Part shown: positions 2,565 to 52,514 of the stretch, piece by piece
How the letters are laid out: every line of letters starts with the position of its first letter
Numbering within the stretch: position 1 is the first letter of the stretch
Notes under the pieces: model-generated
The model's database searches: none
The model's input: the letters and a program-made list of their open reading frames with translations, nothing else
Told to the model about the DNA's origin: nothing
NCBI GenBank assembly: GCA_005879535.1
Contig: VBKI01000069.1
Location: forward strand, 1-57,957
Direction: 5' to 3'
DNA: 57,957 nucleotides
From: Deltaproteobacteria bacterium
GTDB lineage: Bacteria > Myxococcota > Myxococcia > Myxococcales > 40CM-4-68-19
Made by a program: the position numbers and the translations under genes

Positions 2565-3974
<1,410 letters not shown>

Positions 3975-26006: not shown

Positions 26007-26402
26007 GTGCGGCTCAAAGCGCTGGTGTGGATTCTGCGTTCCGGACCTTCCGGACCTTCCATCCTGCTCCTCGAGCGGCCGCCGCATCGGGGCGGCGGCG
26101 AGCATCCCGTCACCGGAAAGGCCGATCCGGGCGAGACCGCGGCGGACTGCGCGGCCCGCGAATCGCTTGAAGAGACCGGCCTGCGCGGCGAGCTCGTCGA
26201 TCTGGGATACGCGCACCGGTACCGCGGCAGGAAGGCGATGTTCGAGGAGCGTGCCTTTCTCCTCCGCGTCGCAGAGGATGCTGCGCCGGCACTCTCCGAC
26301 GAGCACGTCGGGTACCGCTGGGCGTCAGCGAAGGACGCGCGCAGCGCCATGCACTGGAACGCGCACGCCAAGGCGCTCGATCTCGCGCTGAAGGCTTTTT
26401 AG
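26007..26402 (+). CDS. Nudix hydrolase
   Basis: A 131-residue Nudix protein. The full box GKADPGETAADCAARESLEE (GX5EX7REUXEEXGU, about residues 37-59) is intact. Family members hydrolyse nucleoside diphosphates linked to another moiety, with Mg2+. The sequence resembles dihydroneopterin-triphosphate-type Nudix enzymes, but this is not firm. GTG 26007 is the chosen start; TACAAT at 25993-25998 would place transcription start almost at the GTG. It overlaps the Rrf2 gene 3' end by 4 bases. Confidence 0.88.
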   Translation: MRLKALVWILRSGPSGPSILLLERPPHRGGGEHPVTGKADPGETAADCAARESLEETGLRGELVDLGYAHRYRGRKAMFEERAFLLRVAEDAAPALSDEHVGYRWASAKDARSAMHWNAHAKALDLALKAF

Positions 26403-26857
26403 CCCCTCGCGGGAATTCCGAGCGAGATGGGCACCGGGTCCGCCGGCTCGGAAGCGAGCTGCGCCAGCGACGTGCGCCGGTACACTTCCAGCATCCGATC
26501 CTGCCCCACCTTCCAGATCTGGTACATCGTGCAGCCTGCGCTCACGTCGCAGCGGTCCTTGTGGTCGAGGCAGACGTTGAGCTGCACCGGCCCCTCCACC
26601 GCCTCGATGACCTCGAGGAAGGAGATGTCCCGGGCAGGCCGCGCGAGCTGGTACCCGCCGTGAGCGCCGCGGCTCGATCGGACGAGGCCCTTCCCCGTCA
26701 GGACGTTGAGGATCTTGGCAAGGAACTCGCGGGGAATGTGCAGCGTCACGGAAAGATCCTGCAGCGACGCGATCTTCGCCGCCGGTAGCCCGGCGAGGTG
26801 GATCATCGCCCGCAAGCCGTAGTCGATCTTGCGGCTGATCTGCAGGACATGCTGCAT
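26399..26857 (-). CDS. Rrf2-family Fe-S transcriptional regulator (IscR-like)
   Basis: A 152-residue Rrf2 protein. The winged HTH spans about residues 1-80 (GLVRSSRGAHGGYQLARPARDIS). Three cysteines, C96, C103 and C109 in VCLDHKDRCDVSAGCTM, form the cluster-binding set seen in IscR/NsrR-type members. It would sense Fe-S status, NO or oxygen. Start MQHVLQIS at 26857, 40 bases from the divergent PHP gene, which it may regulate. The partner of the A-type carrier at 13340-13720 could be among its targets, but that is speculative. Confidence 0.9.
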   Translation of the reverse strand: MQHVLQISRKIDYGLRAMIHLAGLPAAKIASLQDLSVTLHIPREFLAKILNVLTGKGLVRSSRGAHGGYQLARPARDISFLEVIEAVEGPVQLNVCLDHKDRCDVSAGCTMYQIWKVGQDRMLEVYRRTSLAQLASEPADPVPISLGIPARG

Positions 26858-26897
26858 GGTAGGGAGATAACCAGCGAGGCAAAGGAGCGTCAACAGA

Positions 26898-28222: not shown

Positions 28223-29758
28223 TTACGACAAATTTCCGCTGCCAAAGGCACCGGCCGCCCACCGGACCAATGGCGCCCAGTAAATCCCGAGGACGAGGAC
28301 GGGCACTGCCAGGGCGACGAGCAGGCCAGTGTACACCGCAGGCACCGCGAGCGGCCGCTCGTCCACGGCTTCTTCGAGGTACATCGCCTTGATGATGCGC
28401 GCGTAATAGAAGAGCGAGACCGCGCTGTTCACCACGCCGATCACCGCCAGCAGCACGTTCCAGAACCCACCGCGCTGCACGAGGGCGGCGAAGATGAGGT
28501 ACTTGCCGGCGAAGCCCGCGAACGGCGGAATGCCGGTGAGGCTGAAGAGGAAGACGGTCAGCGCGAGCGCCGCGATGGGGGCCTTGCTCCCCAGGCCGCG
28601 GAAATCGCCGATGTCCTCGCCGCCGGTCACGCGCGCCACCACGATGATCACCAGGAACGCGCCAACATTCATCAGCACGTAGACCATCAGGTAGACGAGG
28701 ATGCTCTGCACGCCGGCCGTGCTCGCGGCGGCGAGGCCCATCAGCAGATAGCCGGCGTGGGCGATGGAGCTGTAGGCCAGCATCCGCTTCAGGTTGTTCT
28801 GCACGATGGCGGTGAGGTTCCCCAGCGTCATCGTGATGGCGGAGATGATCCCGATGATCGCGGGCCAGGGAAGATCGGTGATCGGCGCGTATCCTCCGCC
28901 CGGCATCTGGCGCTCGAAGGCGGCGAAGAAGAAGCGGATGGCCACCGCGAAGCCAGCGGCCTTCGGTCCCACGGAGAGGAACGCCGTGAAGGGCGTGGGT
29001 GCTCCCTCGTACACGTCCGGGCACCACATGTGGAACGGGACGCTCGCGATCTTGTACCCCACGCCGGCGAGGACGAAGACCACCGCCACGACCAGAGCGA
29101 GCTGCGCTGCCGGCTGTCCGCCGAACGTCTGCGCCATGAAGAGGCGGCTGGTGACGTCGGCGAGCTGCGAGCCGATTCCGCCCGCTCCGGTCACGCGCGT
29201 GGTCGCGAAGAGCCCGTAGAGGATGCTCATCCCGTAGAGCATGACGCCCGAGGCGACGCCGCCGTAGATGACGTACTTGAGTGCGGCCTCGTTGGCCTTG
29301 CGGTCGGCGCGCCGGAAGCTGGTGAGGACGTAGCTGACCAGTGAGACCGTTTCGACCGACAGGTAGATCATCAGCAGATCGGTAGAGCTCGCCATCAGGA
29401 ACATGCCGAGCAACAGCGCGAAGAGCAGGGCAATGAACTCCCCCATCCGCGCCACCGAGATCTGCGCGCTCTTGGGAACGATGATCACCGTCAGCACTGC
29501 CGCTCCGAGAAAGAGCCAGGCGAAGAACATCCGCAGCGGATCGTGCTGGAGCAGGCCGCCGAAGAGCGGCACATCTCCTCGCGGAGTGACCGCCGTCGCG
29601 ACCCCGGTGAGCGCCAGCCAGAACAGGGCACCCACGACCAGCGACGGAACCCGCCACTTGCTGCGCCGGACGATCAGGTCCTGCACGAGCATCGCCAGCA
29701 CCGCGACGGTGAGGACGCTCTCGGGCCAGAAGAAACGCAGCGAGTGGAGGTTGTCCAT
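28223..29758 (-). CDS. nuoN: Complex I proton-pumping subunit NuoN (cluster 1)
   Basis: A 511-residue antiporter-like membrane subunit with about 14 helices. The family core (KAPFHMWCPDV-like SVPFHMWCPDVYEGAPTPFT) and KMLAYSSIAHAGY are present. NuoN, M and L move protons when quinone is reduced. It is the last gene of an 11-gene minus-strand operon, 3 bases after nuoM. Confidence 0.95.
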   Translation of the reverse strand: MDNLHSLRFFWPESVLTVAVLAMLVQDLIVRRSKWRVPSLVVGALFWLALTGVATAVTPRGDVPLFGGLLQHDPLRMFFAWLFLGAAVLTVIIVPKSAQISVARMGEFIALLFALLLGMFLMASSTDLLMIYLSVETVSLVSYVLTSFRRADRKANEAALKYVIYGGVASGVMLYGMSILYGLFATTRVTGAGGIGSQLADVTSRLFMAQTFGGQPAAQLALVVAVVFVLAGVGYKIASVPFHMWCPDVYEGAPTPFTAFLSVGPKAAGFAVAIRFFFAAFERQMPGGGYAPITDLPWPAIIGIISAITMTLGNLTAIVQNNLKRMLAYSSIAHAGYLLMGLAAASTAGVQSILVYLMVYVLMNVGAFLVIIVVARVTGGEDIGDFRGLGSKAPIAALALTVFLFSLTGIPPFAGFAGKYLIFAALVQRGGFWNVLLAVIGVVNSAVSLFYYARIIKAMYLEEAVDERPLAVPAVYTGLLVALAVPVLVLGIYWAPLVRWAAGAFGSGNLS

Positions 29759-29761
29759 GAC

Positions 29762-31360
29762 CTATTGCAGCGGAACCAGCAGGGTGCGGAGCGACCCCTG
29801 GATCAGGTTGATGATCGCAGCGGGGTAGAAGCCGAAGAGGATGATCAGGGCGCCCAGCGGATAGAGGGTGAGCCGCTCGCGCCAGTTCACGTCGGGCAGC
29901 GAGGTGTAGGCCGGGTTGAGCTGGCCCAGCATCATTCGCTGGATCGCCCAGAGGTAGTACGCCGCGGTGATGATCACCGAGAGCGCCGAGATGATGGTCA
30001 GCGTCTGCCAGGTGGACAGCGATCCGAGGAAGACGGTGAACTCGCTGACGAAGCCGCATAGTCCCGGTAGCCCGAGCGAGGCAAAGAACGCCAGGCCGAG
30101 CAGGCCGGCGTACTCGGGCACCTGCTTGGCCAGACCGCCGAACCCTTCGATGTTGCGGTGGTGGGCGCGGTCGTAGATCACGCCGACGATGAGGAACAGC
30201 ATCGGGCTGATCAGCCCGTGCGTCCACAGGTTGAGCACCGCTCCGTCGATTCCCTGCTGGGTGAAGGCGCTCATCCCCAACAGGCAGAAGCCCATGTGCG
30301 AGACGGAGGAGTAGGCGATCATCCGCTTCAGGTCCTTCTGCGCCAGGCAGACGAACGCGGCGTAGACGATGTTGATGGTGCCGAACACGGCCATCGCGTA
30401 CGAGGCCCATTTCGTCGCCTGCGGCAGGATGGCGAAGTTGAAGCGGAGGATGCCGTAGATGCCCATCTTGAGGAGCACCCCGGCGAGGATCACCGAGATG
30501 GGCGTCGGCGCTTCCACGTGCGCGTCGGGGAGCCAGGTATGGAAGGGGAACATCGGGATCTTCACCGCGAACCCGATGAACAGCGCCACCCACGTGACCT
30601 TGATGAAGGACATCCCCAGCACGAGCGGCGCGGAGAGGTATCCGCCGGCCCGGCCCCACTGGGCCATCTTCACCATGTTGAACGTGTGGACGGTGCGGCC
30701 GTCGAGCAATTCGGTGGGCCCGTTGTAGTAGAGGCCGATGACGGCGAGGAGGATCAGCACCGAGCCGGCGAGGGTATAGAGGAAGAACTTGATCGCCGCG
30801 TACTCCTTGTTGGAGCCGCCCCAGATGCCGATCAGGAAGTACATCGGCAGCAGCATCACTTCCCAGAAGACGTAGAAGAGGAACATGTCCATGGCGACGA
30901 ACACGCCGATCATCCCGGTCTGCAGGATGAGCAGCAGCGCCATGTAGCCGGGCACTCCGTGCTGCGTAAAGTGGTGCTCGTCGAGGTGCGCGTTGCCCGG
31001 CCACCACGGCATGGACGCGATGGTGGCGATGAAGCTGATCAGCGCCGAGAGGATCACCAGCGTGATGGAGATGCCGTCGACGCCGACGAAGTATTCGATG
31101 TTGTAGGCGGGGATCCAGCGCACGTGCTGGACGAACTGCAGCCCCGGATTCGAGGGGTCGTACAGCTTCCAGAGCAGGAGCGCGAGCAGAAGCGTCAGCC
31201 CGGAGGCGACGAAGGTGATCACGCGGCAGGCCTGGTCCGAGGCCCCCTTTGACAGCGCCCCGCTCGCGCGCAGCCCGAGCACCGGGAGGATCAGAGCCGC
31301 TCCGAGGAGCGGCATGAAGGTGATCGAGGTGAGCAGCGCGGAGGTAGTCGGAAGGTTCAT
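29762..31360 (-). CDS. nuoM: Complex I proton-pumping subunit NuoM (cluster 1)
   Basis: A 532-residue multispan subunit with the ND4 signature: the KIPMFPFHTWLPDAHVEAPT loop and LKRMIAYSSVSHMGFCLLG. It is preceded by nuoL with a 6-base gap. Length and helices are normal for the family. Confidence 0.95.
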   Translation of the reverse strand: MNLPTTSALLTSITFMPLLGAALILPVLGLRASGALSKGASDQACRVITFVASGLTLLLALLLWKLYDPSNPGLQFVQHVRWIPAYNIEYFVGVDGISITLVILSALISFIATIASMPWWPGNAHLDEHHFTQHGVPGYMALLLILQTGMIGVFVAMDMFLFYVFWEVMLLPMYFLIGIWGGSNKEYAAIKFFLYTLAGSVLILLAVIGLYYNGPTELLDGRTVHTFNMVKMAQWGRAGGYLSAPLVLGMSFIKVTWVALFIGFAVKIPMFPFHTWLPDAHVEAPTPISVILAGVLLKMGIYGILRFNFAILPQATKWASYAMAVFGTINIVYAAFVCLAQKDLKRMIAYSSVSHMGFCLLGMSAFTQQGIDGAVLNLWTHGLISPMLFLIVGVIYDRAHHRNIEGFGGLAKQVPEYAGLLGLAFFASLGLPGLCGFVSEFTVFLGSLSTWQTLTIISALSVIITAAYYLWAIQRMMLGQLNPAYTSLPDVNWRERLTLYPLGALIILFGFYPAAIINLIQGSLRTLLVPLQ

Positions 31361-31366
31361 GTCGGG

Positions 31367-33766
31367 TTACCGAATGACGTACTGGATGATGACGAACGCG
31401 ATGGCGCCGCCGAGAGCGCCGTAGAGGTAGGCCTGGATGTGGCCGGTCTGGATGCGCCGCAGCGCGCGGCCGCTGTTCCAGGTGAGCGAGGCGAGGCCGT
31501 TCACGGCGCCGTCGACGATGTACTTGTCGATTCCCGCGTCGACGTAGGCGACGGAACGGCCGAGGAGGCCCATCAGATTGACGAGCCCGTCGATCAGGTT
31601 CTGGTCCACCCAGTACATGGCGCGGGAGAAGAGCAGGGCGCCGCGCACGATCGTCACCTGGTACAGCTCGTCGACGTAGTACTTGTTGTAGACGAGCCCC
31701 CAGGCGCGCGGGAACGTCGCCTTCAGGCGCGCCGGGATGCTGCTCTTGTTGTCGTTGTAGAGCAGGTACGCGAAGACGAAACCGCCGCCTGCCACCACGA
31801 CCCCGCCGATGAGCTGGAAGAGCAGCTCGGTCGAATGCGACGCGTGCGCAAATGGCACCAGCTCGGCCGCGGGCAGGCTGGGCGAGAGCCACTGCTCGAG
31901 CAGCGGCTCATGGCCGCCCCAGGCCGATGGCCAGCCGAAGATGAAGCCCGCCAGCACCGCCCCCGCCGCCAGGGCGATGAGCACGTACGTCATCGTCTTC
32001 GGCGATTCCTGAGGGAGACCTCCGCCGTGGTGGCCGTGATCGTCGTGCACCGCCGCGGCGCCGTGGCTCGCATCGTGCTGGTGCGGCGCGTCGGTCGCCT
32101 GCACCTGCGCGACCGCGGCGCCGTGGCTCGGCGCGGCGTCGGCAGCGCCGGCGTGGAGATGCGCGGACATCGCGTGCGGGTCCTCGAGCCGCTCCTTGTC
32201 CTCGTGTCCTTCGCCGCCCCGGTACGAACCGGTGAAGGTCATGAAGTACGAGCGGAACATGTAGAAGCTGGTCCCCAGCGCGGCGACCGTTCCCACCAGC
32301 CAGATCGCCGGCCCGAGCCATTCGGCCATCAGGCCGCGGGCGGTGAAGGCTTTCCAGAGGATCTCGTCCTTCGAGTAGAAGCCGCTCGCCACCGGGAAAC
32401 CGGCGATGGCAAGGCAGGCGGCGAGGTAGGTCCAGCGCGTAATCGGCGTGTACTCGCGCAGCCCGCCCATCTTGCGCATGTCCTGCTCGTGGTGGCAGGC
32501 GAGGATGACCGAACCGGATGCGAGGAAGAGGCAGGCCTTGAAGAACGCGTGCGTCATCAGGTGGAAGACGCCGGCCCAGTACGCTCCGACTCCCACGCCG
32601 ATGAACATGAACCCGAGCTGCGAGACGGTGCTGTAGGCGAGCACCTTCTTGATGTCGTACTGGAAGAAGCCGATCGACGCGGCGAAGAGCGCCGTCAGGC
32701 AGCCGACCGTCGCCACCACCGTCATCGCCGGCGGGCTGAGGGCGAAGAGGAAGTTGAGCCGCGCCACCATGTAGACGCCCGCCGTCACCATCGTCGCCGC
32801 GTGGATGAGGGCGGAGACCGGAGTCGGCCCGGCCATCGCGTCGGGGAGCCAGACGTACAGGGGGATCTGGGCGCTCTTTCCCGCCGCCCCGACGAAGAAC
32901 AGGATGCAGACCACGGCCAGGACCGGGAAGCCCCAGAAGGTCATCTTCTTGAGGCGCTCGGCCATCCCGCTGGACTCGTCGGCGATCTGGTTGCGCAGCT
33001 CGCGGAACTCGACCGTCGGCCCGAGCTTCACGCCGCTCGGCGCCGTCCTGGGCAGGACGGGAGCGACTCCGCGCACGGCTCCGCTCAGGCCCTTCTCGGG
33101 CACGTACTTGTTGGTCCCATGGGCCCATGTGCCCGAGAGCGACCAGAAGAGGATGAAGAGACCGATGATGAAGCCGAAATCGCCGAACCGGTTCACCACG
33201 AAGGCCTTCATGCCTGCCTTCGCCTTCTCGATGTCCTCGTACCAGAAGGCGATCAGGCCCCAACTACAAAGGCCTACGCCTTCCCAGCCGAAGAACATCA
33301 CCAGAAAATTAGAACCCATCACCAGGAGCAGCATCGAGAAGACGAACAAGTTCAGCCACATGAAGAACCGCCAGTAGGCCGGTTCGTCCGCCATGTAGCC
33401 GACGGAGTAGACGTGGATGAGCGTCGCCACGTGGGTGACGATCATCGTCATCAACATGCCGAGAGGATCGAGGCCGAAGCTGAGGTCGGCCTTCAGCGCC
33501 CCCGACTGCCACATCGTCCAGAGGTGGTCCTCGAAGAAGCGCTCGTGTGGGTGAGCGAAGACCATCTTCCAGAACGCCACTTCCGCGACCACGCAGGAGA
33601 GCACCATGGCCCCGACCGCGATGGCGTGGACGGCGCCCTTGCCAAACTTTTTCTGCAGCCGCGCCCCGAGGAAGGCGTTGAGCGCGGTCCCGAGCAGCGG
33701 AAAGGCCGGGATCAGCCAGAGCCAGCCGACCTGAACCGCGTTCGCGATCGCTTCCTTGTGTTCCAT
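31367..33766 (-). CDS. nuoL: Complex I proton-pumping subunit NuoL (cluster 1), with His-rich linker
   Basis: A 799-residue ND5-type subunit, longer than the usual 610-680. The antiporter core (AQIPLYVWLPDAMAGPTPVSAL; KKVLAYSTVSQLG) is normal. The extra length is a soluble insert at about residues 520-588 rich in His, Ala and Asp (HQHDASH and HDDHGHHGGG segments), located before the C-terminal helices that carry the lateral arm. The His cluster may bind metal; this is inference. A further extended region (residues 220-260) lies between helices. Confidence 0.93.
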   Translation of the reverse strand: MEHKEAIANAVQVGWLWLIPAFPLLGTALNAFLGARLQKKFGKGAVHAIAVGAMVLSCVVAEVAFWKMVFAHPHERFFEDHLWTMWQSGALKADLSFGLDPLGMLMTMIVTHVATLIHVYSVGYMADEPAYWRFFMWLNLFVFSMLLLVMGSNFLVMFFGWEGVGLCSWGLIAFWYEDIEKAKAGMKAFVVNRFGDFGFIIGLFILFWSLSGTWAHGTNKYVPEKGLSGAVRGVAPVLPRTAPSGVKLGPTVEFRELRNQIADESSGMAERLKKMTFWGFPVLAVVCILFFVGAAGKSAQIPLYVWLPDAMAGPTPVSALIHAATMVTAGVYMVARLNFLFALSPPAMTVVATVGCLTALFAASIGFFQYDIKKVLAYSTVSQLGFMFIGVGVGAYWAGVFHLMTHAFFKACLFLASGSVILACHHEQDMRKMGGLREYTPITRWTYLAACLAIAGFPVASGFYSKDEILWKAFTARGLMAEWLGPAIWLVGTVAALGTSFYMFRSYFMTFTGSYRGGEGHEDKERLEDPHAMSAHLHAGAADAAPSHGAAVAQVQATDAPHQHDASHGAAAVHDDHGHHGGGLPQESPKTMTYVLIALAAGAVLAGFIFGWPSAWGGHEPLLEQWLSPSLPAAELVPFAHASHSTELLFQLIGGVVVAGGGFVFAYLLYNDNKSSIPARLKATFPRAWGLVYNKYYVDELYQVTIVRGALLFSRAMYWVDQNLIDGLVNLMGLLGRSVAYVDAGIDKYIVDGAVNGLASLTWNSGRALRRIQTGHIQAYLYGALGGAIAFVIIQYVIR

Positions 33767-33777
33767 GGTCGCTTGGG

Positions 33778-34095
33778 CTACTCGCGGAGCAGATCGGTTT
33801 CCTGCACGTCGATGGTGCGGAAGGTCTGGTAGATGGCCAAAACGATGGCGAGGCCGATGGCCGCTTCCGCCGCCGCCAGCACGATCACGAAGATGGAGAA
33901 CACCTGCCCTGTGATCTTGCCGGGCCCTTCCACGTAGTGGTTGAAGGCGATGAAGTTCACGTTGGCGGCGTTGAGGATCAGCTCGACGCCCATCAGGATG
34001 CCGACGGCGTTGCGGCGCGTGACCACGGTCACCATCCCCAGGGCGAAGAGGACGGCGCCGACGATGAGAAAGTGAGGTAGACCGATGCTCGTCAT
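33778..34095 (-). CDS. nuoK: Complex I membrane subunit NuoK (cluster 1)
   Basis: A 105-residue, three-helix protein. The start MTSIGLPHFLIVG overlaps the nuoJ stop (ATGA). The conserved Glu in GILMGVELILNAAN and Glu in AAAEAAIGLAI, both needed for proton coupling, are present. Confidence 0.95.
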   Translation of the reverse strand: MTSIGLPHFLIVGAVLFALGMVTVVTRRNAVGILMGVELILNAANVNFIAFNHYVEGPGKITGQVFSIFVIVLAAAEAAIGLAIVLAIYQTFRTIDVQETDLLRE

Positions 34096-34970
34096 TCGAG
34101 GACCGCGTCGGATTGTTCCTTGATTTCCTTGCGCGCGATGATCACCGCGCCGACCAGCGCCGCGAGCAGCACCACCGAGGCGACCTCGAACGGCAAAAGG
34201 AAGTCGGTGAGGAAGGCCGTGCCCAGCGCCGCGCTCACCGGCTCGTAGGACCGCGAGGGCGCCTCCTTCCAGGGGGTCATCACCGCCATGTACGCGAGGG
34301 TGCCGACGGTCGCGGCCGCCAGCGCAGCGCCGATCGGCAGCCCGAGGTGCGCGTTGGTCAGACTCGGGTCGCCGCCGATCTGCTTGGTGAGCATGATGGC
34401 GAAGAGGATCAGCACCAGGATCCCGCCGACGTAGATCAGGACCTGCGCCACCGCGGGAAAGTCGGCCCCGAGGAAGACGTAGAGGCCGGCGACGCCGAGG
34501 AAGGCGAAGAGCAGCGCCCAGGCGGAGTAGATGATGTTGCGCGAGAATGCGCATCCCGCCGCGCCGGCGATGGTCATCAAGGCGAAGGCGTAGAAGAGAA
34601 AATCCGTCAGGTGCACCAGCCCGATGAACTGCCCGGCGGCGTCGAAGAGCAGCGGCGCGACGATGGCGCCGACGAAGTACGCGACGAGGAACAGGACGCC
34701 GAACGCCGCGGCGGAGAACACCAGCAGCGAGAGCCCGGAAAGCGGAACGGTGCGGAAGAGGAACCCGTTCAGCCCCCAGATCACGCAGGTGACGGCGACG
34801 TACTCGAGCAGCAGGGTGGGTGCGAGGCCGAGGTGCGCGAATCGGTTCAGTACGGCTACGCCGACGATCCCTGCAAGCCCCGCCGCAAGCACGCCGAGAC
34901 GCACGAGAACTGCGCGTAAATGCGAGGGAACTTCCGGCAAGATGATCCTCCGCCCGAGAGCGCGGTGCAC
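34092..34970 (-). CDS. nuoJ: Complex I membrane subunit NuoJ (cluster 1), N-terminally extended
   Basis: A 292-residue form of a protein usually about 170-200 residues. The conserved core is VLIYVGGILVLILFAIMLT in the second half. The first about 120 residues add extra hydrophobic helices (AGLAGIVGVAVL; LLVFSAAAFGVLFLVAYFVG). If the true start is internal, the extension would be lost, but no well-placed internal start stands out. GTG start at 34970, directly after nuoI. Confidence 0.88.
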   Translation of the reverse strand: MHRALGRRIILPEVPSHLRAVLVRLGVLAAGLAGIVGVAVLNRFAHLGLAPTLLLEYVAVTCVIWGLNGFLFRTVPLSGLSLLVFSAAAFGVLFLVAYFVGAIVAPLLFDAAGQFIGLVHLTDFLFYAFALMTIAGAAGCAFSRNIIYSAWALLFAFLGVAGLYVFLGADFPAVAQVLIYVGGILVLILFAIMLTKQIGGDPSLTNAHLGLPIGAALAAATVGTLAYMAVMTPWKEAPSRSYEPVSAALGTAFLTDFLLPFEVASVVLLAALVGAVIIARKEIKEQSDAVLE

Positions 34971-34971
34971 T

Positions 34972-36174
34972 CTACTTTGGCGGCGGCTTGGTGCCTAGCA
35001 TGATTTCGTACAGCTTGGCGCGGGTATCCTCGCCGCCGGGAGCGCAGCGGCCCAGGTCGGTCTGGCCCTCGTAGACGATGCCCTTCGTGTAGCCGTCGCA
35101 GTCCGGATATTCGCAGTCGCCGCAGTCCGTGCCGGCCATCGCGTCGAGCACCACTTTGTAAAGCTCGTCCTTCGGCAAGGTCTGCGCCAGCGGCGGCCCT
35201 TTAGGCTTCTCGGGCTCCTTTGCACTGCCGGGCGCAGGCGCCGGCGCCTCGTGCTTTGGCTCGGCGGCGCCCGGAACGACCCCTGTCTTCAGCGAGACGA
35301 GAATGGTCTCCAGCATCGCTTTGGAGTCGGCCCCGCCCGGCGCGCACTTCTCGGTGCTGGTGTCCTTGCCCTGCGCGATCGCGTTGGAATACCCGAAGCA
35401 GTCCGGATAGCCGCAATCGCCGCAGTCGGTGCCGGCCATCGCCTCTTCGAGCACTTTCTGCAGCTTCGGCTTGTCTTCCTTGACCTGCAGGGCGCGCGCG
35501 GCGAGCTGGCGGCCCATCGCGGCCACATCCAGCCCCGCAGCCTTGGGCTTGCCGTGATCGGCCTTCGCCGTCTCCTCCTTCGAGGGAAACGGGGGCGGCG
35601 GAGCATCCCAGGCCTTGATCAGCTTGCGGGTGATCTCCCCGAGCTGCTGGCGCGGAAAGGCCTCCGCGCCTTTCGGCGGCTTGTAGGGAACCGCCGGCAC
35701 CAGCGGATCGGGCACGAAGCGCAGCGTGAGGTTGTTGAAGTGCATCACCGCGCCTTCGAACTCGCGCGTGTGCTGGATGGCGCCGGTCGGACAGGGCTCG
35801 ACGCAGAGCCCGCAGTACATGCACTTGCCGATGTCGATGTCGAACCGCTCCATCCGGAGCTTGGGCGTAATCTTTCCGTCGCCCTTGAGGATGTCGATGT
35901 TGATGACCTGAATCGGGCACGCGCGCTCGCAGGCCTGGCACGCCGTGCAGATGTCCATGTCCACTTCCAGGAAACCGCGGTAGCGCGCCGGGATCGTATG
36001 GTGCACGGGCACCGACATCCGGTCCGGGTACTGCGAGGTGATCGGCTTCCGGAACATGTAGCTGAGCGTGACGCTCATGCCCTCCCAGAAGCTCTTCGCC
36101 GTGTCGCGGACGTTCTTCACGTACGCGCCGAGGGCGCCGGGAGTCTGTGGGGGAGGGAGCAGGGTCTCAGCCAT
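34972..36174 (-). CDS. nuoI: Complex I Fe-S subunit NuoI (cluster 1) with two RnfB-type Fe-S domains
   Basis: A 400-residue NuoI; the usual length is about 140-230. Residues 1-170 are standard NuoI with two [4Fe-4S] motifs: C76, C79, C82, C86 (CTACQACERACP) and C118, C121, C124, C128 (CMYCGLCVEPCP). After a Pro/Lys-rich linker come two copies of the RnfB-type Fe-S motif, C251, C254, C259, C277 (AGTDCGDCGYPDCFGY...CAPGG) and C351, C354, C359, C377 (AGTDCGDCEYPDCDGY...CAPGG), exactly 100 residues apart. That motif binds one [4Fe-4S] in RnfB, where it takes part in ferredoxin electron transfer. The tail may therefore be an alternative input for a complex lacking NuoEFG; the function is inferred. 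Confidence 0.95.
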   Translation of the reverse strand: MAETLLPPPQTPGALGAYVKNVRDTAKSFWEGMSVTLSYMFRKPITSQYPDRMSVPVHHTIPARYRGFLEVDMDICTACQACERACPIQVINIDILKGDGKITPKLRMERFDIDIGKCMYCGLCVEPCPTGAIQHTREFEGAVMHFNNLTLRFVPDPLVPAVPYKPPKGAEAFPRQQLGEITRKLIKAWDAPPPPFPSKEETAKADHGKPKAAGLDVAAMGRQLAARALQVKEDKPKLQKVLEEAMAGTDCGDCGYPDCFGYSNAIAQGKDTSTEKCAPGGADSKAMLETILVSLKTGVVPGAAEPKHEAPAPAPGSAKEPEKPKGPPLAQTLPKDELYKVVLDAMAGTDCGDCEYPDCDGYTKGIVYEGQTDLGRCAPGGEDTRAKLYEIMLGTKPPPK

Positions 36175-36180
36175 CTCGGG

Positions 36181-37410
36181 TCACCAGTTGGAGGTGAAGT
36201 CGAACTTGTCGCCGGTGTCGCGAAGGTTGTGGGCCACGCGCTGGACGAACATGATCACGGCCACCGCCGCCGCTCCCGCGAGCAGGAAGTGCATGGCCAT
36301 TCCGACGGCCGGCGCGGCCCGGACGATCAGCATCCACCCGGCCACGAAGAGCACCCCGACGAAGCTGGCCGGCACCAGGTACTTCCAGCACATGTTCATC
36401 ATCTGATCGACGCGGATGCGCGGCAACGTCCAGCGCAGCCACATCACCACGAAGACGAAGAACAGCGTCTTGCCGGCAAACACCAGGACCGAGGCCACCT
36501 CGGCGAAGAAGGCCGTCCAGCCGGTGAGCGCGTCGAGCCGCTCGGCGGGGAAGAACGGCACCTGCCAGCCGCCCATGAACATGGTGACGGCCAGCGCCGA
36601 CATCACCCAGAGGTTTCCCCACTCCACGAGGAAGAAGTAGGAGAACCGCATCCCCGAGTACTCGGTGTTGTAGCCGGAGACCAGCTCCGATTCGGCCTCC
36701 GGCAGGTCGAACGGCGTCCGGTTGCCCTCCGCCAGCGCGCTGATGAAGAAGATGAAAAAGCCGGCGGTCGCGGCCGGGTTGTCGAAGATGAACCACTGCC
36801 AGGGCCAAGGCCCCTGGGCGCGGATGATGCCCTGCGTGGACATGGTGCCCGCGAGCAGCACCGGGATCATCAGCGCCATCCCGGCGGGGATCTCGTAGGA
36901 GATGATCTGCGCGGCGCTGCGGATGGCGCCGAAGAGGCTCCACTTCGAGTTGGAGCTCCAGCCCGACATGATGATCCCCACCACGATCAGCGCGGTGACG
37001 GCGAGGATGTAGAAGATCCCGATGTTCATGTCGGCGATGACCAGCCGGTGGCTGAAGGGCAGCGCCACGAACACGCAGGCGAACCCGACCATCATGAAGT
37101 AGGGCGCCGCCCGGAAGAGCACGTTGTCCGCTTCGGCCGGGATCAGGTCTTCCTTGAAGAGCAACTTCACCGCGTCCGCGATCCACTGCAGGAACCCGGC
37201 CGGGCCGACGCGGTTCGGTCCTACGCGGCTCTGCATCCGAGCGGCGATGCGCCGCTCGGCCCAGGAGAAGATCCCGCCGGTGATGGCGGCGAAGTTGATC
37301 ACGATGAACGAGAACAGCCCCATGAAGCCGACGTAGACGAACTGCGTCCAGGGCCAGGTCGCGGGGTCGTATCCCCACCCGCGGATCAGGTTGTCGATGA
37401 ACCCCTGCAT
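36181..37410 (-). CDS. nuoH: Complex I quinone-channel subunit NuoH (cluster 1)
   Basis: A 409-residue ND1-type subunit. The signature SWAERRIAARMQSRVGPNRVGP and LPEAESELVSGYNTEYSGMRF are conserved, and Glu-rich loops shape the quinone site. Immediately follows nuoD (no gap) and precedes nuoI by 6 bases. Confidence 0.95.
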   Translation of the reverse strand: MQGFIDNLIRGWGYDPATWPWTQFVYVGFMGLFSFIVINFAAITGGIFSWAERRIAARMQSRVGPNRVGPAGFLQWIADAVKLLFKEDLIPAEADNVLFRAAPYFMMVGFACVFVALPFSHRLVIADMNIGIFYILAVTALIVVGIIMSGWSSNSKWSLFGAIRSAAQIISYEIPAGMALMIPVLLAGTMSTQGIIRAQGPWPWQWFIFDNPAATAGFFIFFISALAEGNRTPFDLPEAESELVSGYNTEYSGMRFSYFFLVEWGNLWVMSALAVTMFMGGWQVPFFPAERLDALTGWTAFFAEVASVLVFAGKTLFFVFVVMWLRWTLPRIRVDQMMNMCWKYLVPASFVGVLFVAGWMLIVRAAPAVGMAMHFLLAGAAAVAVIMFVQRVAHNLRDTGDKFDFTSNW

Positions 37411-38589
37411 CTAGCGATCGATCTCCGGTGCGACGACGTCGAGGGAAGCGATCAGCGCCACCAGGTCGGCGATCATCAGGCCGCGGGAGAGCGCGTCGAT
37501 GATGCCCATGGCGGTGAAGCTGCCGGTCCGGATCTTCACCCGGTGCGCGTTCTCGCCCGGGCCGGCGACCACGTAGTACTGCATGTCGCCGCGCGCGCTC
37601 TCGATGCGGCTGTACGCCTCGGTGCCCTCCGGGATTTTGATCTTGCGCGGCACCTTCCCCATGATCTGGCTGTCCTTGGGGAGCTGGGCCAGCGCCTGGC
37701 GGAGGATGCGGCAGCTCTGGCGCATCTCCTCCACGCGGCACCAGAAGCGGTCCCAGGCATCGCCCATCGTTCCGACTTCGCCCTTGCCCACCGGCACGTC
37801 GAACTGGAAGTCCGGATAGACCGAGTAGGGCAGGGCCTTGCGCACGTCGAAGCTCAGACCGCACGCGCGCAGGTTGGGACCCACCAGGCAGTAGTCGATG
37901 GCCATCTGAGCGGGGATGGGCGCGAGATGCGCCAGCCGCTTGATGAAGATCTCGTTGTAGGTGATCAGCCGGTTGAACTCGTCGAGGATCTTCTCGAAGT
38001 GGTCGAGGAAGGTCGAGACCTTGTCCTCGTACCCGCTGGGCAGGTCGAAGGCGACCCCCCCGATGCGCAGGTAGTTGTAGGTCAGCCGCGCGCCACAAAG
38101 CTCCTCGAGCAGATCGTTGATGAACTCGCGCTCGCGCAGCGCGTACGGGAAGGGCGTCACCGCGCCGATGTCCATCGCCATGGTGCCGACGGAGATCAGG
38201 TGGCTGGAGATGCGGTTCAGCTCGCAGGCGATCACCCGGCAATACTCGGCGCGCCTGGGGATCTGCATGCCGAGCAGGCGTTCCACCGCCATGGCCCAGC
38301 CCTGATTGGCGAACATGGCGGCGATGTAGTCGACGCGGTCGGTGTAGGGCATGTATCCGTTGTACGTGCAGCGCTCGCCGATCTTCTCCAGGCTGCGGTG
38401 CAGGTACCCGACCTCGGGGATGGCGCGCTTCATCACCTCGCCATCGGTCTGGACGAGGAAGTTGATCACGCCGTGGGTGCTCGGATGCTGCGGCCCCATG
38501 TTGAGCAGCATGTCCCCGCTGATCTCGATGCGGCGGAGAACCTCCTTGTTCTCCATGTCCATCGTGGGGACTTCGAGGGGCTTGCTCAC
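37411..38589 (-). CDS. nuoD: Complex I 49-kDa subunit NuoD (cluster 1)
   Basis: A 392-residue quinone-site subunit. The [12 protein letters not shown] signature, the [NiFe]-hydrogenase-like fold and Asp/His residues are intact, ending in [24 protein letters not shown] start overlapping the nuoC stop (GTGA). Confidence 0.95.
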
Positions 38590-39155
38590 TGCGGCAGCTC
38601 CTTCTTCGAGGCCGCGGCGGCTTCAGCGGCCTTCTTCTTCAGCTCGTCGAGGCGGACGTAGCCTTCCAGCGAGTTGTCGCGCGTGGTGGTGATGTTGTGC
38701 CACTGCGCCTGCTCCGCGTAGTCCTTCCGCAGCGGGTTTCCCACCCAGTCGTCCGGCATCATGATCCGGCGCAGGTCGGGATGTCCGGTGAACTGGACCC
38801 CCATCAGGTCGTACTGCTCGCGCTCGAGCCAGTCGGCGGACTTCCAGAGCGATTCGATGCTGGCGATCTCCGGCTTTGCCCGATCGAGCTGCACCTTGAG
38901 GACGAAGGCGTGCCTCCTCCGGTAGCTCCAGAGGTGGTAGACGACCTCGATCTGGTTCCTCTTCGGCCAGTCGATGGTGGAGAGGTTCATCAGGCAGTCG
39001 AAGGCCAGGGCCTCGTCCTCCTTCGCGTACCGGCAGATCTCCACGATGTCCGCCGCCTGCACCACGAGGAACGGGTCCTTGTTCGCGGGGGAAAGTGCGC
39101 CAATGCGCTCACCGAACTTGCCGGCGAGGCGCTGCTGAATCTCTTCGAACGTCAT
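38586..39155 (-). CDS. nuoC: Complex I 30-kDa subunit NuoC (cluster 1)
   Basis: A 189-residue hydrophilic subunit. [24 protein letters not shown] with GNPLRKDY is the family signature. The C-terminus is a charged helix ([21 protein letters not shown]). NuoC and NuoD are separate genes here, as in the second cluster. Confidence 0.93.
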
Positions 39156-39701
39156 CTAGGCGGTCACCTTGTAGTCGACGCCCAGGGAGGGCTGACCCTG
39201 GCCGACCTTCTGGCGCGCGCTGAACCACCGCTCGCGGACGATCTTGTCCTGCACCCGCATCAGGCCTTCGGTCAGCGCCTCGGGACGGGGCGGGCAGCCG
39301 GGTACGTAGATGTCCACCGGCACGAGCTTGTCGACGCCCTTGCAGACCGAGTAGGCGTACTGGAAGAGGCCGCCGCAGGAGGCGCAGGAGCCCATGGAGA
39401 TGACGTACTTCGGCTCGGCCATCTGCTCGTAGAGCAGGCGGCAGCGCTCGGCCATCTTGTAGGTCAGGGTTCCGGCGACGATCATCAGGTCGCTCTGGCG
39501 CGGCGTCGCCCGGGGGACGGATCCGAATCGGTCGATGTCCGCCCGCGGACCGCCGGTCTGCATCAGCTCGATCCCGCAGCAGGCGAGCCCGAAGAGCAGG
39601 TAGAAGATGCTGCTCTTGCGCGCCAGGTTGATGATCTCGTCGATGAACGAGGTCTTGCTGGTGATGATGGAACCGAAGTCCTGCTGGTAATCCCTGGCCA
39701 T
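39156..39701 (-). CDS. nuoB: Complex I Fe-S subunit NuoB (cluster 1)
   Basis: A 181-residue protein that carries the N2 [4Fe-4S] cluster. The ligands lie in [17 protein letters not shown] and [10 protein letters not shown]. Start MARDYQQDF at 39701, just after the nuoA stop. Confidence 0.95.
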
Positions 39702-39703
39702 CT

Positions 39704-40159
39704 CTACGCCGCCTTCTTTTCGTCTTTGCCCTGGAGGGGCTTCTGCTTCTGGTCCCGGATCGACTGCAGCACGTCCTGCTTCAGCCCCTTCACCCACTCC
39801 AGATCGCCCATGGCCCACACGTAGGCGAGGCCCACGGCCAGGATGGCGACGAAGACGAAGATCTCGATGAAGGCGAGCAGCCCCTGGCCCTTCTCGATGA
39901 ACGCCTTGTAGACCGACGCCACGGGGAACATGAACGCGATCTCCACCTCGAAGATCACGAACACCAGCGCGATCAGGTAGAAGCGCGGATTGAAATTGAA
40001 CCAGGCGTGGCCGATGGGCTTTTCGCCGCACTCATAGATCATCGACTTCTCTCGCGTGGGCGCATGCGGGCGCAGGAAGCGCCCAGCGACCAGCGAGCCG
40101 AGGACGAACAGGACCGCCGTGGCGGAGAAAAGCAGAACGTTGGCGAAATGGAAGGGCAT
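39704..40159 (-). CDS. nuoA: Complex I membrane subunit NuoA (cluster 1)
   Basis: A 151-residue three-helix protein. The conserved [28 protein letters not shown] is present, with an acidic FEVEIAF segment and a Lys-rich C-terminal tail. GAGGAG lies 4 bases upstream of the ATG. It is the first gene of the 11-gene operon, so the promoter must be in the 40160-40451 gap. Confidence 0.93.
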
Positions 40160-43003: not shown

Positions 43004-44203
43004 ATGCGTACCGTTCCGATCCTGATCGCCGCGCACGTCTGCTCGATGCTCGGGTTCTCCACGTTCGCGGCGCTGCTCCCGCAGCTTCGCGACGAGTGGT
43101 CGCTCAGCAACGCGCAGGCGGGCATCGTGGGCGGGGTGTTCTTTGGCGGGTACATCGCCTCGGTCTCGTACTGGACCGCGCTGACGGATCGGGGCGATGG
43201 GCGGAGGGTCTACGCCGTGGGCAGTCTCGTCGCTGCCGCCGCCAGCGCGGGTTTCGGGTGGCTCGCGAGAGGATTTGCCAGCGCGCTCCTTTTCCAGGCG
43301 CTGCTGGGCGTCGGGATCGCCGGCACGTACATGCCCGGGCTGCGGCTGCTCTCGGACCGGATCTCCGGATCGAAGCAGAGCCGATCCATCGCCTTCTACA
43401 CGGCGTCCTTCGGCCTCGGAACGGCGCTGTCGCTGGCGCTGGCGGGCGCCGTCGCATCGCGCGCCGGCTGGAAGGCGGCGTTCCTGGTCGCCGCCGTGGG
43501 ACCGCTGATCGCCGGCACTCTGGTGGTCGCGCTCCTGACTCCGCTCCAGCAGGCGGGAGCGCCGGGGCGATCGATGGCGTTGATCCCGTTTGCCTCGTGG
43601 GGACCCATCCTGCGGCAGCGAGAGGTGGCCGGGTACATCGTCGGCTATGCGGTGCATTGCCTGGAGCTGTTCGGGTCCCGCAGCTGGATGGTCGCTTTCC
43701 TCACCTTCTGCGCCGGCTTGCGCGCGGGCGGGCCAGGATTTCCCTGGAGCGCCCAGTCGATCGCCGCCGTCGTCAATCTCATGGCGGTGCCGGCGTCGAT
43801 CGCGGGAAACGAGATCGCGCTGCAGGTGGGTCGCCGCAAATGGATCCTGCTGGCGATGGCCGCGTCGGGCGCAAGCGGAATCGTGCTCGGGTTTTCGGCC
43901 CGCTGGCACTGGATCGTGGTGCTGGCGATCCTGGCGGCGTACTCGATGATGGTGATGGCGGAGTCGGCGACGCTCACGGCGGGGCTCGTCGCGGCGTCTC
44001 CGCCGGAGCTGCGCGGCTCGGCGATGGGCCTCTATTCGCTCGCCGGATTCGGCGGCGGGATGCTCGGTCCGGTGATCTTCGGCGCTGCGCTCGACGTCGC
44101 GGGTGGCGCCGCGAGCACCACGGCCTGGGTCGTCGCATATGCGGCGATCGGCAGCGGCTGCCTCGCGGCCCCCGTGGTGGCGCGCTGGTTCGCTCGAAAC
44201 TAA
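43004..44203 (+). CDS. MFS transporter
   Basis: A 399-residue 12-helix permease. The first loop motif DRGDGRRVYAVGSL and RLLSDRISGSKQSRSIAFYT are MFS signatures. It has a short central loop and no obvious substrate hint. Last 4 bases overlap the convergent SCO-like gene. Position near FabG/PanE-type genes gives no clue. Confidence 0.9.
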   Translation: MRTVPILIAAHVCSMLGFSTFAALLPQLRDEWSLSNAQAGIVGGVFFGGYIASVSYWTALTDRGDGRRVYAVGSLVAAAASAGFGWLARGFASALLFQALLGVGIAGTYMPGLRLLSDRISGSKQSRSIAFYTASFGLGTALSLALAGAVASRAGWKAAFLVAAVGPLIAGTLVVALLTPLQQAGAPGRSMALIPFASWGPILRQREVAGYIVGYAVHCLELFGSRSWMVAFLTFCAGLRAGGPGFPWSAQSIAAVVNLMAVPASIAGNEIALQVGRRKWILLAMAASGASGIVLGFSARWHWIVVLAILAAYSMMVMAESATLTAGLVAASPPELRGSAMGLYSLAGFGGGMLGPVIFGAALDVAGGAASTTAWVVAYAAIGSGCLAAPVVARWFARN

Positions 44204-44832
44204 CCCTGGGCCCGGTCTTCGAGCAGTAGCGTCTTGATGTCGTTGAGCAAGACCTGCGTCTGCAGAAACGACGTGCTGTAGATCTCCCGCACCGAGCCGC
44301 GCCGATCGATGAGGAACACCTTCAGCACGTGCGAGAGCGAGCCGGTGCCCGCGCGCGGCATCCACACATCCTGACCGAGGCCGCGCAGGAGCGGCTCGGT
44401 CTCGCTGCGCGAGCGGGTGGTGAGGAAGTGCCATGGCACTCCGCCGCCGCCCGACACGAATCCGCGGCGGTACGCGCGCATGACCGCGGGGGTGTCGTGA
44501 TCCGGATCGAAGCTGAGGCTGACGAAGCGCAGCTCCGGAACCAATCCGGGCTGCTCGTCGATGCGCTCCTTCAGCTCTTTCATTCGATGCGTTGCGAGCG
44601 GACAGCCCATCCCGTCGGTGCACTTCGTGTAGATGAGGCTCAGGACCGTCACCTTGCCGGTGGTGAACTGCGAGAACGGCCGGGCCTTGCCTTGCGCATC
44701 GAGGACTGTCCCCGCAGGCGCGGAGATGATGTGCTGCAGCTTGTACGTACCCGGCGCAGGAGGCGCGAAGTCCTGCGCCAGCGCCGCCGCCGAGGCAAGC
44801 AGCAGAGCCAGGGGGCCTGGTGTCTTCATCAT
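44200..44832 (-). CDS. SCO1/SenC-like protein with unusual cysteine spacing
   Basis: A 210-residue secreted thioredoxin-fold protein with a signal peptide (PGPLALLLASAAALAQ). Copper-type ligands are in YTKCTDGMGCPLA and the conserved His in GSLSHVLKVFLID. Normal SCO proteins have CxxxCP; here the spacing is Cx5CP. It is downstream of, and overlaps by ATGA, the SBP56 gene. In methanethiol-oxidase operons an SCO-like gene sits beside the SBP56 gene and is thought to assist copper loading, so the same role is likely here. Confidence 0.85.
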   Translation of the reverse strand: MMKTPGPLALLLASAAALAQDFAPPAPGTYKLQHIISAPAGTVLDAQGKARPFSQFTTGKVTVLSLIYTKCTDGMGCPLATHRMKELKERIDEQPGLVPELRFVSLSFDPDHDTPAVMRAYRRGFVSGGGGVPWHFLTTRSRSETEPLLRGLGQDVWMPRAGTGSLSHVLKVFLIDRRGSVREIYSTSFLQTQVLLNDIKTLLLEDRAQG

Positions 44833-46106
44833 TGGGAGTCGAATGCCGTCTTCAACGCCTTCGACCCGAGCTTCATGTGGTGGGCGCGCCCGAGCTTCTG
44901 CTGGAGGAAGTCGACTTCGAACGCCTGGGTCAGCTCCTTGCCGTCCCACTTGAACCCGCGGAGGAACTGCTCGTTGTCGGCGCCCTTCTTGTCCCAGTTC
45001 GCGAGCAGCGACGAGGTGATATAGACGCGCTTGCCGTCCCAGCTCTGCGAGATCATGTTCACCTGCTTCCCCGTCGCCTTCTCGTAGGCCTGGACCGGCT
45101 TCTCCGGATTGCTGAGGTCGAAGTACCGGGTCTTGCCGTCCATGAATGTGTTGACCCAGAGCCCCTTTCCGTCCGCGCTGATGCTGATGTCCACCGGCAA
45201 GGGGATCTTCGCCGGATCACCGATGTCGGCGACGGCCTGCCCCTGCCAGTTGCCGCTCGCATCCTGCTTGATGAGCCAGAGCTTGGAGGTGAGCGCGGCG
45301 GCGGTGACGGCCCAGTTGTCCTGGGGATTGAGCGACCAGCGGATCTCCAGGGGCGCTCCCGGCACGGCGAGGATCTTCGTCGGTTTCATCGCCTTGAAGT
45401 CCCAGAGGGCCATCGTGCTTCCAAAGTGCTTCATCGCCTCCTGGTCTTTCACCAGCGTGCCGAAGTCCATCATGTAGTTCTTCTGTCCCGTGAAGCTCGA
45501 GGTGAGCATCACGTTCTTCTTGGGATTGATCGCGATGTCGTAGCCATAGCCGTCCCCACCTCCCTCGGTCGGCATCGGGTACTTGGCGATCAGCTTGCCG
45601 TTGTTGTTGTAGAGCGCCATCCCCGTCACACCGCCCTGATCCTTGGAGTTGGAGAGCGCCTGGATCAGCATGCGCCCCGGCAGCGCATAGAAGGTGTGCG
45701 GCCCGACATATCCGGTCTTGGCCGGCAGATCGGAGATGGTCTTCACCAGTCGCGGCTTCGCCGGATTCTTCGAGATGTCGAACACGTAGATCTTGCTGTC
45801 ATCGAGCCCACCGGCCCAGAGGAACCGCCGGTCGTCGGTCAGGCCCATGTGATGCGCTTCACCGCGCGCAGCCACCGAAGCGCTCGAGATGACCTTGCCG
45901 TAGCTGCTCGACCGCGGATTGACGTCCACGGTGACGAGCTTGTCCGACCCGTCACCGAGCCCCTCGATCCCCAGGGCCCAGACGTACACGTAGTCCTCTT
46001 GTCCTTTGATCAGGTTCCCGACGTAAGGCGAGTTGCAGGTCTCGTCCGCGACGGCGATCGAGCTCGCGCCGATCACGAACACCACGATCCAGAAATAGCG
46101 GGCCAT
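44829..46106 (-). CDS. SBP56 / selenium-binding protein, methanethiol-oxidase-like, periplasmic
   Basis: A 425-residue beta-propeller protein with a signal peptide (MARYFWIVVFVIGASSIAVA). Family segments include EAHHMGLTDDRRFLWAGG, VGPHTFYALPGRMLIQALSN and KLGRAHHMKLGSKALKTAF, with metal-binding His candidates. SBP56 homologs in bacteria include MtoX, a copper methanethiol oxidase that makes H2S, H2O2 and formaldehyde. The export signal and the SCO partner fit MtoX. A mauG-like gene usual in mtoX operons is not here. An upstream frame without signal-peptide character was rejected. Confidence 0.85.
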   Translation of the reverse strand: MARYFWIVVFVIGASSIAVADETCNSPYVGNLIKGQEDYVYVWALGIEGLGDGSDKLVTVDVNPRSSSYGKVISSASVAARGEAHHMGLTDDRRFLWAGGLDDSKIYVFDISKNPAKPRLVKTISDLPAKTGYVGPHTFYALPGRMLIQALSNSKDQGGVTGMALYNNNGKLIAKYPMPTEGGGDGYGYDIAINPKKNVMLTSSFTGQKNYMMDFGTLVKDQEAMKHFGSTMALWDFKAMKPTKILAVPGAPLEIRWSLNPQDNWAVTAAALTSKLWLIKQDASGNWQGQAVADIGDPAKIPLPVDISISADGKGLWVNTFMDGKTRYFDLSNPEKPVQAYEKATGKQVNMISQSWDGKRVYITSSLLANWDKKGADNEQFLRGFKWDGKELTQAFEVDFLQQKLGRAHHMKLGSKALKTAFDSQ

Positions 46107-46275
46107 GCGCTCATCCCCTTTCCAAGCGCCCCTGCCGTGCTGCTCCTGGGTGCGCGCGCTGTCAAGACGCGGGCCGTCGAGGCCTTTGCACAGGGCATTT
46201 CCTTTCCTCGGTACTGCCACGCATTTCGCTGCCGGCAGACACTGGTTATAGGATGGCCAGAGCGCTGGGGGGCGC

Positions 46276-46686
46276 ATGCAGCATCCTCTGCAAATCGTTC
46301 TGGTGGTCGACGACCACAGGGATACGGCCGAGATGATCGCGGAGTTCCTCCGCGAAGTCGGATTCGATTCCCATACCGCAAACACCGGCTTGGATGCCTT
46401 GCGCATCTACGACGCGCTGCGGCCCGCCTTGATCATCACCGACGAGTCCCTTGCCGGGACCATCGCGGGCTCGGAGCTTGTCCGCGTCCTCCGGCGCAAG
46501 TACGGCCCGGCGGTCGGCCGCGCTCTGTTTCTCACTGGGGCGCCTGACACGGTGAGCTCGCTGCCGACGGACGTCGTACTGGAGAAGCCGGTGGATCTGG
46601 AGACCTTGATCGCTGCGGTCCGGTCGATCCTCGGCGGCCCGCCCGCCGCGCGCGAATCGGGAGCGGCTGCCTCGGCTCGTCGTTGA
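46276..46686 (+). CDS. Single-domain response regulator (receiver only)
   Basis: A 136-residue CheY-like protein. Acidic pair D12, D13; phospho-acceptor D56 (IITDESLAG); Thr87 and Lys104 (EKPV) complete the active site. It has no output domain; a disordered Ala/Arg tail follows. Divergent from SBP56, with a 169-base gap. No histidine kinase is nearby. Confidence 0.9.
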   Translation: MQHPLQIVLVVDDHRDTAEMIAEFLREVGFDSHTANTGLDALRIYDALRPALIITDESLAGTIAGSELVRVLRRKYGPAVGRALFLTGAPDTVSSLPTDVVLEKPVDLETLIAAVRSILGGPPAARESGAAASARR

Positions 46687-51468: not shown

Positions 51469-51849
51469 ATGGACTATCTCTCTCCGTACATTCCGATCCT
51501 CGTCCTGCTCCTGCTCACCGGCGTGCTCTGCACGGCCATCGGCGTGCTCGCGACGGTGCTCGGCCCCAGGCGGATCACGCGGATCAAGGAGACGGCGTTC
51601 GAGTGCGGGTCGCCTTCCACCGGCGATCCACATGCGCGCCATTCGGTGAAGTTCTACCTGGTCGCGCTGCTCTTCATCGTCTTCGATATCGAGAGCGTGT
51701 TCATCTACCCGTGGGCTGCGCTCCTGCGCGACCTGCACGGCGAAGGGCTGGGCTGGTTCGCCTACTTCGAGATGCTGTCGTTCATGGTGACGCTCGCGCT
51801 GGGCCTCGTCTACGTTTGGCGCAAGGGCGCTCTGGAGTTCAACCTGTGA
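51469..51849 (+). CDS. nuoA: Complex I membrane subunit NuoA (cluster 2)
   Basis: A 126-residue three-helix subunit. KETAFECGSPSTGDPHARHS with VKFYLVALLFIVFDIESVF is the family signature. Only 2 bases follow the YfhO-like stop. It starts the second, plus-strand nuo cluster and differs markedly in sequence from the cluster 1 NuoA. Confidence 0.94.
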   Translation: MDYLSPYIPILVLLLLTGVLCTAIGVLATVLGPRRITRIKETAFECGSPSTGDPHARHSVKFYLVALLFIVFDIESVFIYPWAALLRDLHGEGLGWFAYFEMLSFMVTLALGLVYVWRKGALEFNL

Positions 51850-52511
51850 GCGACGACCAGTACCGCCTGCCCATCCTCAAGCCAGAAGGAAACGTTCCGG
51901 AGTCGCCGCGGGTCGGCGGCGAGGAGCAGAACGTCCCGGTGCTCGCCACCCGGCTCGACGACGCCATCGGCTTCTTCGAGAAGAACCTCTCCGATGTGCT
52001 GGGCTGGGCGCGCAAGAACTCCATCTTCCAGTACCCCTTCGTCACCGCCTGCTGCGGCATGGAGTACATGAGCGCGATGGCAGGCCGCTACGACATCGCC
52101 CGCTTCGGCGCCGAGTTTCCCCGTTTCACCCCGCGTCAGGCCGATCTGCTGATGATCGTCGGCACCATCAACGTGAAGCAGTCCCCGGTGCTCAAGCGCG
52201 TCTACGATCAGATGACGGAGCCCAAGTGGGTGATGGCCTTCGGCGTCTGCGCCAGCTCGGGCGGCTTCTACGACAACTACGCCACCCTGCAGGGCGCCGA
52301 CCGCGTCATCCCCGTCGACGTCTACGTCCCCGGCTGCCCGCCGCGGCCGGAGCAGGTGCTCGACGGCCTCAAGATCCTCCAGGACAAGATCCAGAACCAG
52401 CGGCACCGCGCGGCCACCATGGAGAGGGCGCCGGAGGTGCAGCTCGATCTCGCCGCCCGGCAGCGCGAACACAAGACCCGGAGCTTCCTCGGCAAGCTGC
52501 TGGGGAAATAG
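51846..52511 (+). CDS. nuoB: Complex I Fe-S subunit NuoB (cluster 2)
   Basis: A 221-residue N2-cluster protein: TACCGMEYM, FGVCASSGG and [11 protein letters not shown] hydrophilic N-terminal extension of about 50 residues and a Lys/Arg tail distinguish it from the cluster 1 NuoB. GTG start overlaps the nuoA stop. Confidence 0.94.
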   Translation: MSDDQYRLPILKPEGNVPESPRVGGEEQNVPVLATRLDDAIGFFEKNLSDVLGWARKNSIFQYPFVTACCGMEYMSAMAGRYDIARFGAEFPRFTPRQADLLMIVGTINVKQSPVLKRVYDQMTEPKWVMAFGVCASSGGFYDNYATLQGADRVIPVDVYVPGCPPRPEQVLDGLKILQDKIQNQRHRAATMERAPEVQLDLAARQREHKTRSFLGKLLGK

Positions 52512-52514
52512 GCC

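Follow-up and report, generated by a model that had tools for sequence, protein, structure and literature searches.

A NuoI subunit fused to two RnfB-type iron–sulfur domains in an 11-subunit complex I of Myxococcota

Introduction

Which donor feeds electrons to a complex I that lacks the NADH module, outside photosynthetic organisms? A published account of 11-subunit complexes treats their donor as an open question and knows of none common to them (PMC11238625), and a tailed NuoI encoded in the stretch of DNA analyzed here (the window; 57,957 nucleotides, positions 1 to 57,957 of contig VBKI01000069.1), from a soil-dwelling member of the Myxococcota, bears on this question. Specifically, the electron-entry subunit carries domains of the type found in a ferredoxin-driven enzyme, and does so in one, two or no copies across related species. 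The 11-subunit complex I and the FdI domain of RnfB are each known, but their fusion was absent from the papers searched; our literature search returned no description of a NuoI with FeS or RnfB domains, in keeping with the first-pass annotation, which knew of no such form. If the reading developed below is correct, a tethered arm would be one concrete donor answer for 11-subunit complex I enzymes, and complex I and Rnf, both ancient energy-coupling machines, would be seen to swap parts.

Architecture of the fused subunit

The gene occupies positions 34972–36174 and encodes 400 residues, as the first-pass annotation had it, although the reading frame lies on the minus strand; read from 36174 to 34972 the frame is free of stops, and the plus strand of the same interval holds a stop. 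The NuoI core (residues 1–189; 35608–36174, minus strand, as are all parts of the gene) contains both ordinary ferredoxin motifs of the form CxxCxxCxxxCP, at residues 76–87 and 118–129, corresponding to clusters N6a and N6b, and a Pfam Fer4_7 match at residues 76–132 is consistent with a ferredoxin-type core. A first linker rich in Pro, Ala and Lys (residues about 190–216; 35527–35607), with low model confidence and low conservation, leads to the first RnfB-type FeS domain (residues 217–298; 35281–35526; pLDDT about 75–96), which contains C251, C254, C259 and C277. A second linker, rich in Pro, Ala and Glu and the least conserved of all stretches (residues 299–328; 35191–35280), then leads to the second RnfB-type domain (residues 329–396; 34987–35190), with C351, C354, C359 and C377. 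All eight cysteine positions had been named before and are exact in the minus-strand translation, and the motif, CxxCx4Cx17C, is of the PF04060/FdI type. The proposal that two such domains follow the ordinary NuoI motifs is borne out by Pfam, in which PF04060 scores 40.3 bits against a gathering cut-off of 23 over two stretches (E-values 6.7e-8 and 1.2e-5), the sole PF04060 matches in the 5.16-Mb genome.

Curated family models divide on this protein. The NCBIfam RnfB model TIGR01944 is passed with 91.2 bits against a cut-off of 68.7 (best stretch, residues 219–292), and the NCBIfam NuoI model TIGR01971 is missed at 94.8 bits against a cut-off of 113.05, although a NuoI model ranks first by E-value among the curated families and the gene lies between nuoH and nuoJ. 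Automatic annotation may therefore label these fusions as RnfB, a possible reason for their having been overlooked.

The two tail domains are well conserved. Alignment of 12 tail domains from several families revealed 15 columns without variation, among them the PGG and the four cysteines; the two-domain forms retain all eight cysteines. Among five two-domain genomes, mean pN/pS was 0.30 for the core, 0.24 for the first FeS domain and 0.20 for the second, with 0.43 and 0.64 for the linkers; purifying selection on both FeS domains is thus at least as strong as that on the NuoI core, and the linkers are loose. Together with recurrence in independent genomes, this selection rules out an assembly artefact or chance: the gene encodes a NuoI with two PF04060 domains attached, and the fusion is real and under selection. 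In AlphaFold2 models the tail forms two separate helical domains predicted with confidence (mean pLDDT of 81 for the tail alone) and joined by linker with values below 50, predicted to be disordered, and the combination of compact domains and disordered linkers is supported by pLDDT, secondary structure and linker divergence. A Foldseek search with the full model matched NuoI relatives alone, and a search of the PDB with the tail model matched no related fold.

An 11-subunit operon beside a second complex I

The fused gene is the sixth of 11 genes in a minus-strand cluster (40159–28223) with the order nuoA-B-C-D-H-I-J-K-L-M-N. It is preceded by nuoA (39704–40159), nuoB (39156–39701), nuoC (38586–39155), nuoD (37411–38589) and nuoH (36181–37410), and followed by nuoJ (34092–34970), nuoK (33778–34095), nuoL (31367–33766), nuoM (29762–31360) and nuoN (28223–29758). 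The NuoL of this operon has 799 residues, against 650 in the copy on contig C67, and features a His-rich stretch (HDDHGHHGGG and neighbours) and further insertions. The fused gene sits in this nuo operon instead of beside rnfA, C, D, E and G partners.

The lack of nuoE, nuoF and nuoG that the first-pass annotation noted holds for the operon and fails for the genome. A second complex I locus, ABCDGH(I), occupies 51469–57957 on the plus strand of the same window, comprising nuoA (51469–51849), nuoB (about 51850–52511), nuoC (52515–53177), nuoD (53170–54444), nuoG (about 54440–56180), nuoH (56181–57683) and a nuoI that begins at 57683 and is cut off by the end of the contig. The genes nuoE, nuoF, nuoJ, K, L, M and N are found on the minus strand of contig C67 (L002, 7139–14912), and the two pieces probably represent one split 14-subunit complex I. 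The tailed complex is therefore a second, paralogous complex I beside a complete NADH-dehydrogenase complex I. Two genomes of the order that consist of a single contig, G012 and G023, likewise pair the 11-gene operon with a canonical A-B-C-D-H-I locus that is divergent, and NuoF is present in 143 of the order's 145 genomes.

In one alternative reading, the tail domains bind clusters but dock and relay for a single partner enzyme instead of free ferredoxin, candidates for the partner being a hydrogenase, a formate dehydrogenase, a 2-oxoacid oxidoreductase or NuoEF from the second complex I. A role as docking platforms for several donors has been proposed for 11-subunit complexes (PMC11238625), NuoE and NuoF are indeed encoded elsewhere in the same genome, and the offset from core to FeS domain is nearly constant across homologues (115–126 residues in most), which fits a defined reach. 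However, the operon has no accompanying donor gene, the NuoE, F and G genes are part of a full second set that has A, B, C, D, H, I and J–N genes as well, and one homologue (G165) has a linker of ~170 residues; we regard a dedicated docking arm as rather unlikely.

Distribution of the tail

The fusion recurs, with one or two FeS domains, in at least 12 further Myxococcota genomes, and independent MAGs bear the same fusion at 75–94% identity. NuoI of this type occurs in 40 of the 145 genomes of the order at E ≤ 1e-15, the match in one of them (G123) being weak. Two FeS domains are present in G000, G004 (a fragment), G005, G006, G009, G010 and G036, and one in G003, G011, G038, G039, G040 and G084; zero are present in G007, G089, G138 and the large family f2, which we take from its placement to be probably Anaeromyxobacter and in which a long Ala/Pro tail is often found instead. 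In the Anaeromyxobacter-like proteins (L026, L029, L031, L035 and L036) this tail is long, variable, rich in Ala, Pro and Lys, and free of FeS domains, resembling a tether minus its cargo. In G003 (L009, 1501–2580, plus strand) Pro/Ala-rich sequence stands in place of the second FeS domain and the terminal LGTKPPPK is retained, as if by internal deletion. Any PF04060 match was found in 14 genomes of the order, and in 13 of these all matches fall inside the NuoI tail; the one other genome, G139 (L127, L129 and L130), encodes an RnfB with RnfC nearby, together with hydrogenase-type E/F/G-like clusters.

A scan of named genomes recovered 13 fusion loci, all from Myxococcota or from MAGs labelled Deltaproteobacteria or Proteobacteria, plus one weak match in a Caldisericota MAG. 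The scan patterns were fairly strict and missed the diverged fusion of G154, so confinement of the fusion to Myxococcota is not established by the scan. Searching 195 genomes of the phylum brought in two more, G154 and G190 (whose locus is L073), and in G165 a degenerate form. The diverged NuoI of G165 (L117, about 2822–4180, plus strand) ends in a degenerate CxxxC FeS-like domain after a linker of ~170 residues, and has lost one cysteine from the first core ferredoxin motif.

On a tree of the NuoI core, NuoH and NuoD from 34 genomes, the presence of the tail requires at least seven changes; the tail has thus been gained or lost repeatedly, which marks it as a modular accessory. In a tree of the FeS domains, whose shortness limits what it can say on a single origin of the second domain, the four second domains of f1 cluster together and that of G036 is unplaced. 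Mapping the tail against nuoEFG, as the first-pass annotation had suggested, placed every tailed NuoI with a readable neighbourhood beside 11-subunit genes and none beside NuoEFG, so that the co-occurrence which would count against an alternative input arm was seen at none of these loci.

Patchy presence also invites the reading that the tail lies off the electron path, as an appendage for assembly, stability or redox sensing, or as a remnant being lost. The number of changes on the tree, the FeS-free tails of the Anaeromyxobacter-like proteins, the replaced second domain of G003 and the degenerate motif of G165 are all consistent with this. Such a role is nonetheless unlikely in view of the selection on both domains, which equals or exceeds that on the core, and of the eight cysteines, all of which are kept in two-domain forms. 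A different candidate, that every complex without NuoEFG strictly depends on the tail to replace its NADH module, was rejected, given that many sister complexes are without a tail.

Relation to known complexes

The tail profile matches the solved RnfB chains 8ahx (4.5e-8), which we take to be the RnfB of Azotobacter, and 7zc6 (1e-6). The latter is the RnfB of C. tetanomorphum, in which FdI is highly mobile, is flanked by two flexible, solvent-exposed linkers and very likely contains a [4Fe-4S] cluster, its movement being proposed to enable electron transfer (PMC9588780). The NuoI tail thus shares its cysteine motif with a mobile domain held between flexible linkers. In Rnf, FdI stands between the membrane anchor and the ferredoxin domains, with RnfA/E receiving its electrons (PMC9588780), whereas the tail described here hangs from NuoI, is free of an anchor and is present in two copies. 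The RnfB of T. maritima is said to be FdI alone (PMC9588780). The N-terminal FeS domain of the corrinoid/iron-sulfur protein large subunit (4djd) belongs to the same motif family and is reported to have an FdI-like fold with a [4Fe-4S] cluster (PMC9588780), but serves another function, and its match to the tail profile is very weak (E 0.84).

With phmmer, the fused protein matched NdhI, NuoI and NDUFS8 chains, and the best match of the core was to cyanobacterial NdhI (8.4e-24), followed by Thermus (1.6e-17) and E. coli (1e-13). The NuoD of the operon has Thermus Nqo4 as its best match, about equal to NdhH, and displays no clear preference for NDH-1. Photosynthetic NDH-1 likewise lacks the NADH module, and there ferredoxin feeds N6a in NdhI, the nearest relative of the NuoI core by sequence, directly (PMC7021789). 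In contrast to the fused subunit, NdhI has no FeS tail, and helpers such as NdhS are located at the donor site; a search of the present genome with PF11623 (NdhS, the ferredoxin-site helper) returned no match. The nuoABCDHIJKLMN complex of Desulfitobacterium hafniense (PMC11238625) is identical in gene set and gene order and also lacks NuoEFG; it differs from the complex described here, in which NuoI bears RnfB-type FeS domains, one or two in number, and beside which the genome encodes a complete 14-subunit complex I.

Candidate donors and a proposed mechanism

To probe possible donors, we compared genomes with and without the complex for 2-oxoacid:ferredoxin oxidoreductase (POR; PF01558). Within the order POR occurs in 37 of 39 genomes with the complex versus 31 of 106 without (Fisher 2e-13, with ancestry left uncorrected), outside the order in 19 of 19 genomes with the complex versus 16 of 31 others, and overall in 56 of 58 versus 47 of 137; shared ancestry and lifestyle are confounders here. 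The genome under study has three PF01558 matches, and G036 has two FeS domains yet zero POR matches. A motif search of the loci that were read turned up no ferredoxin gene next to the operon.

Insofar as the core is nearest to NdhI, the tail is nearest to RnfB and POR co-occurs with the complex, a ferredoxin-type donor acting through tethered carriers is favoured. We accordingly consider it somewhat probable that the tail domains are mobile, tethered [4Fe-4S] carriers on a complex I without NuoEFG, supplying N6a with electrons taken from a donor of the ferredoxin type. What follows on the clusters, the passage of electrons along the tail, the donor and the direction is inferred. Each FeS domain would most likely use its four invariant cysteines to hold one [4Fe-4S] cluster, and the domains, on their flexible Pro/Ala-rich tethers, would swing to collect electrons in the cytoplasm; the donor would most likely be ferredoxin that 2-oxoacid:ferredoxin oxidoreductases have reduced, or one of these enzymes directly. 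The domains may then deliver the electrons to N6a in the NuoI core, at the apex where NuoG would sit if present, from where transfer would proceed through N6b and N2 to quinone as NuoH, L, M and N pump protons. The built-in input arm envisaged by the first-pass annotation therefore stays plausible in a weaker form; many sister 11-subunit complexes are without the tail, which consequently cannot be essential to electron input, and a complex I without NuoEFG does not need it. The broader proposition, of a complex I fed by covalently tethered, swinging [4Fe-4S] domains of the Rnf family that were repeatedly gained or lost and replace the rigid NADH module, we advance tentatively, as a possibility falling a little short of an even chance.

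The same path could also run in reverse, with quinol and the proton gradient yielding reduced ferredoxin, and this may be the main function of the tail: reduction of a low-potential carrier via the FeS domains. The anatomy allows either direction, Rnf itself is reversible (PMC9588780), and the genome is without an Rnf-type PF04060 protein of its own; sequence, however, cannot reveal direction, and we judge reverse flow as the tail's purpose to be improbable.

Two further features lie near the 11-gene operon. Slightly downstream, an Rrf2-type regulator (26399–26893, minus strand) has cysteines in mid-protein, and Fe-S or redox regulation is possible. Elsewhere in the window, a gene resembling those for selenium-binding protein or methanethiol oxidase (44829–46406, minus strand) is followed by a SCO1/SenC-like gene (44200–44949, minus strand), both recognized by eye.
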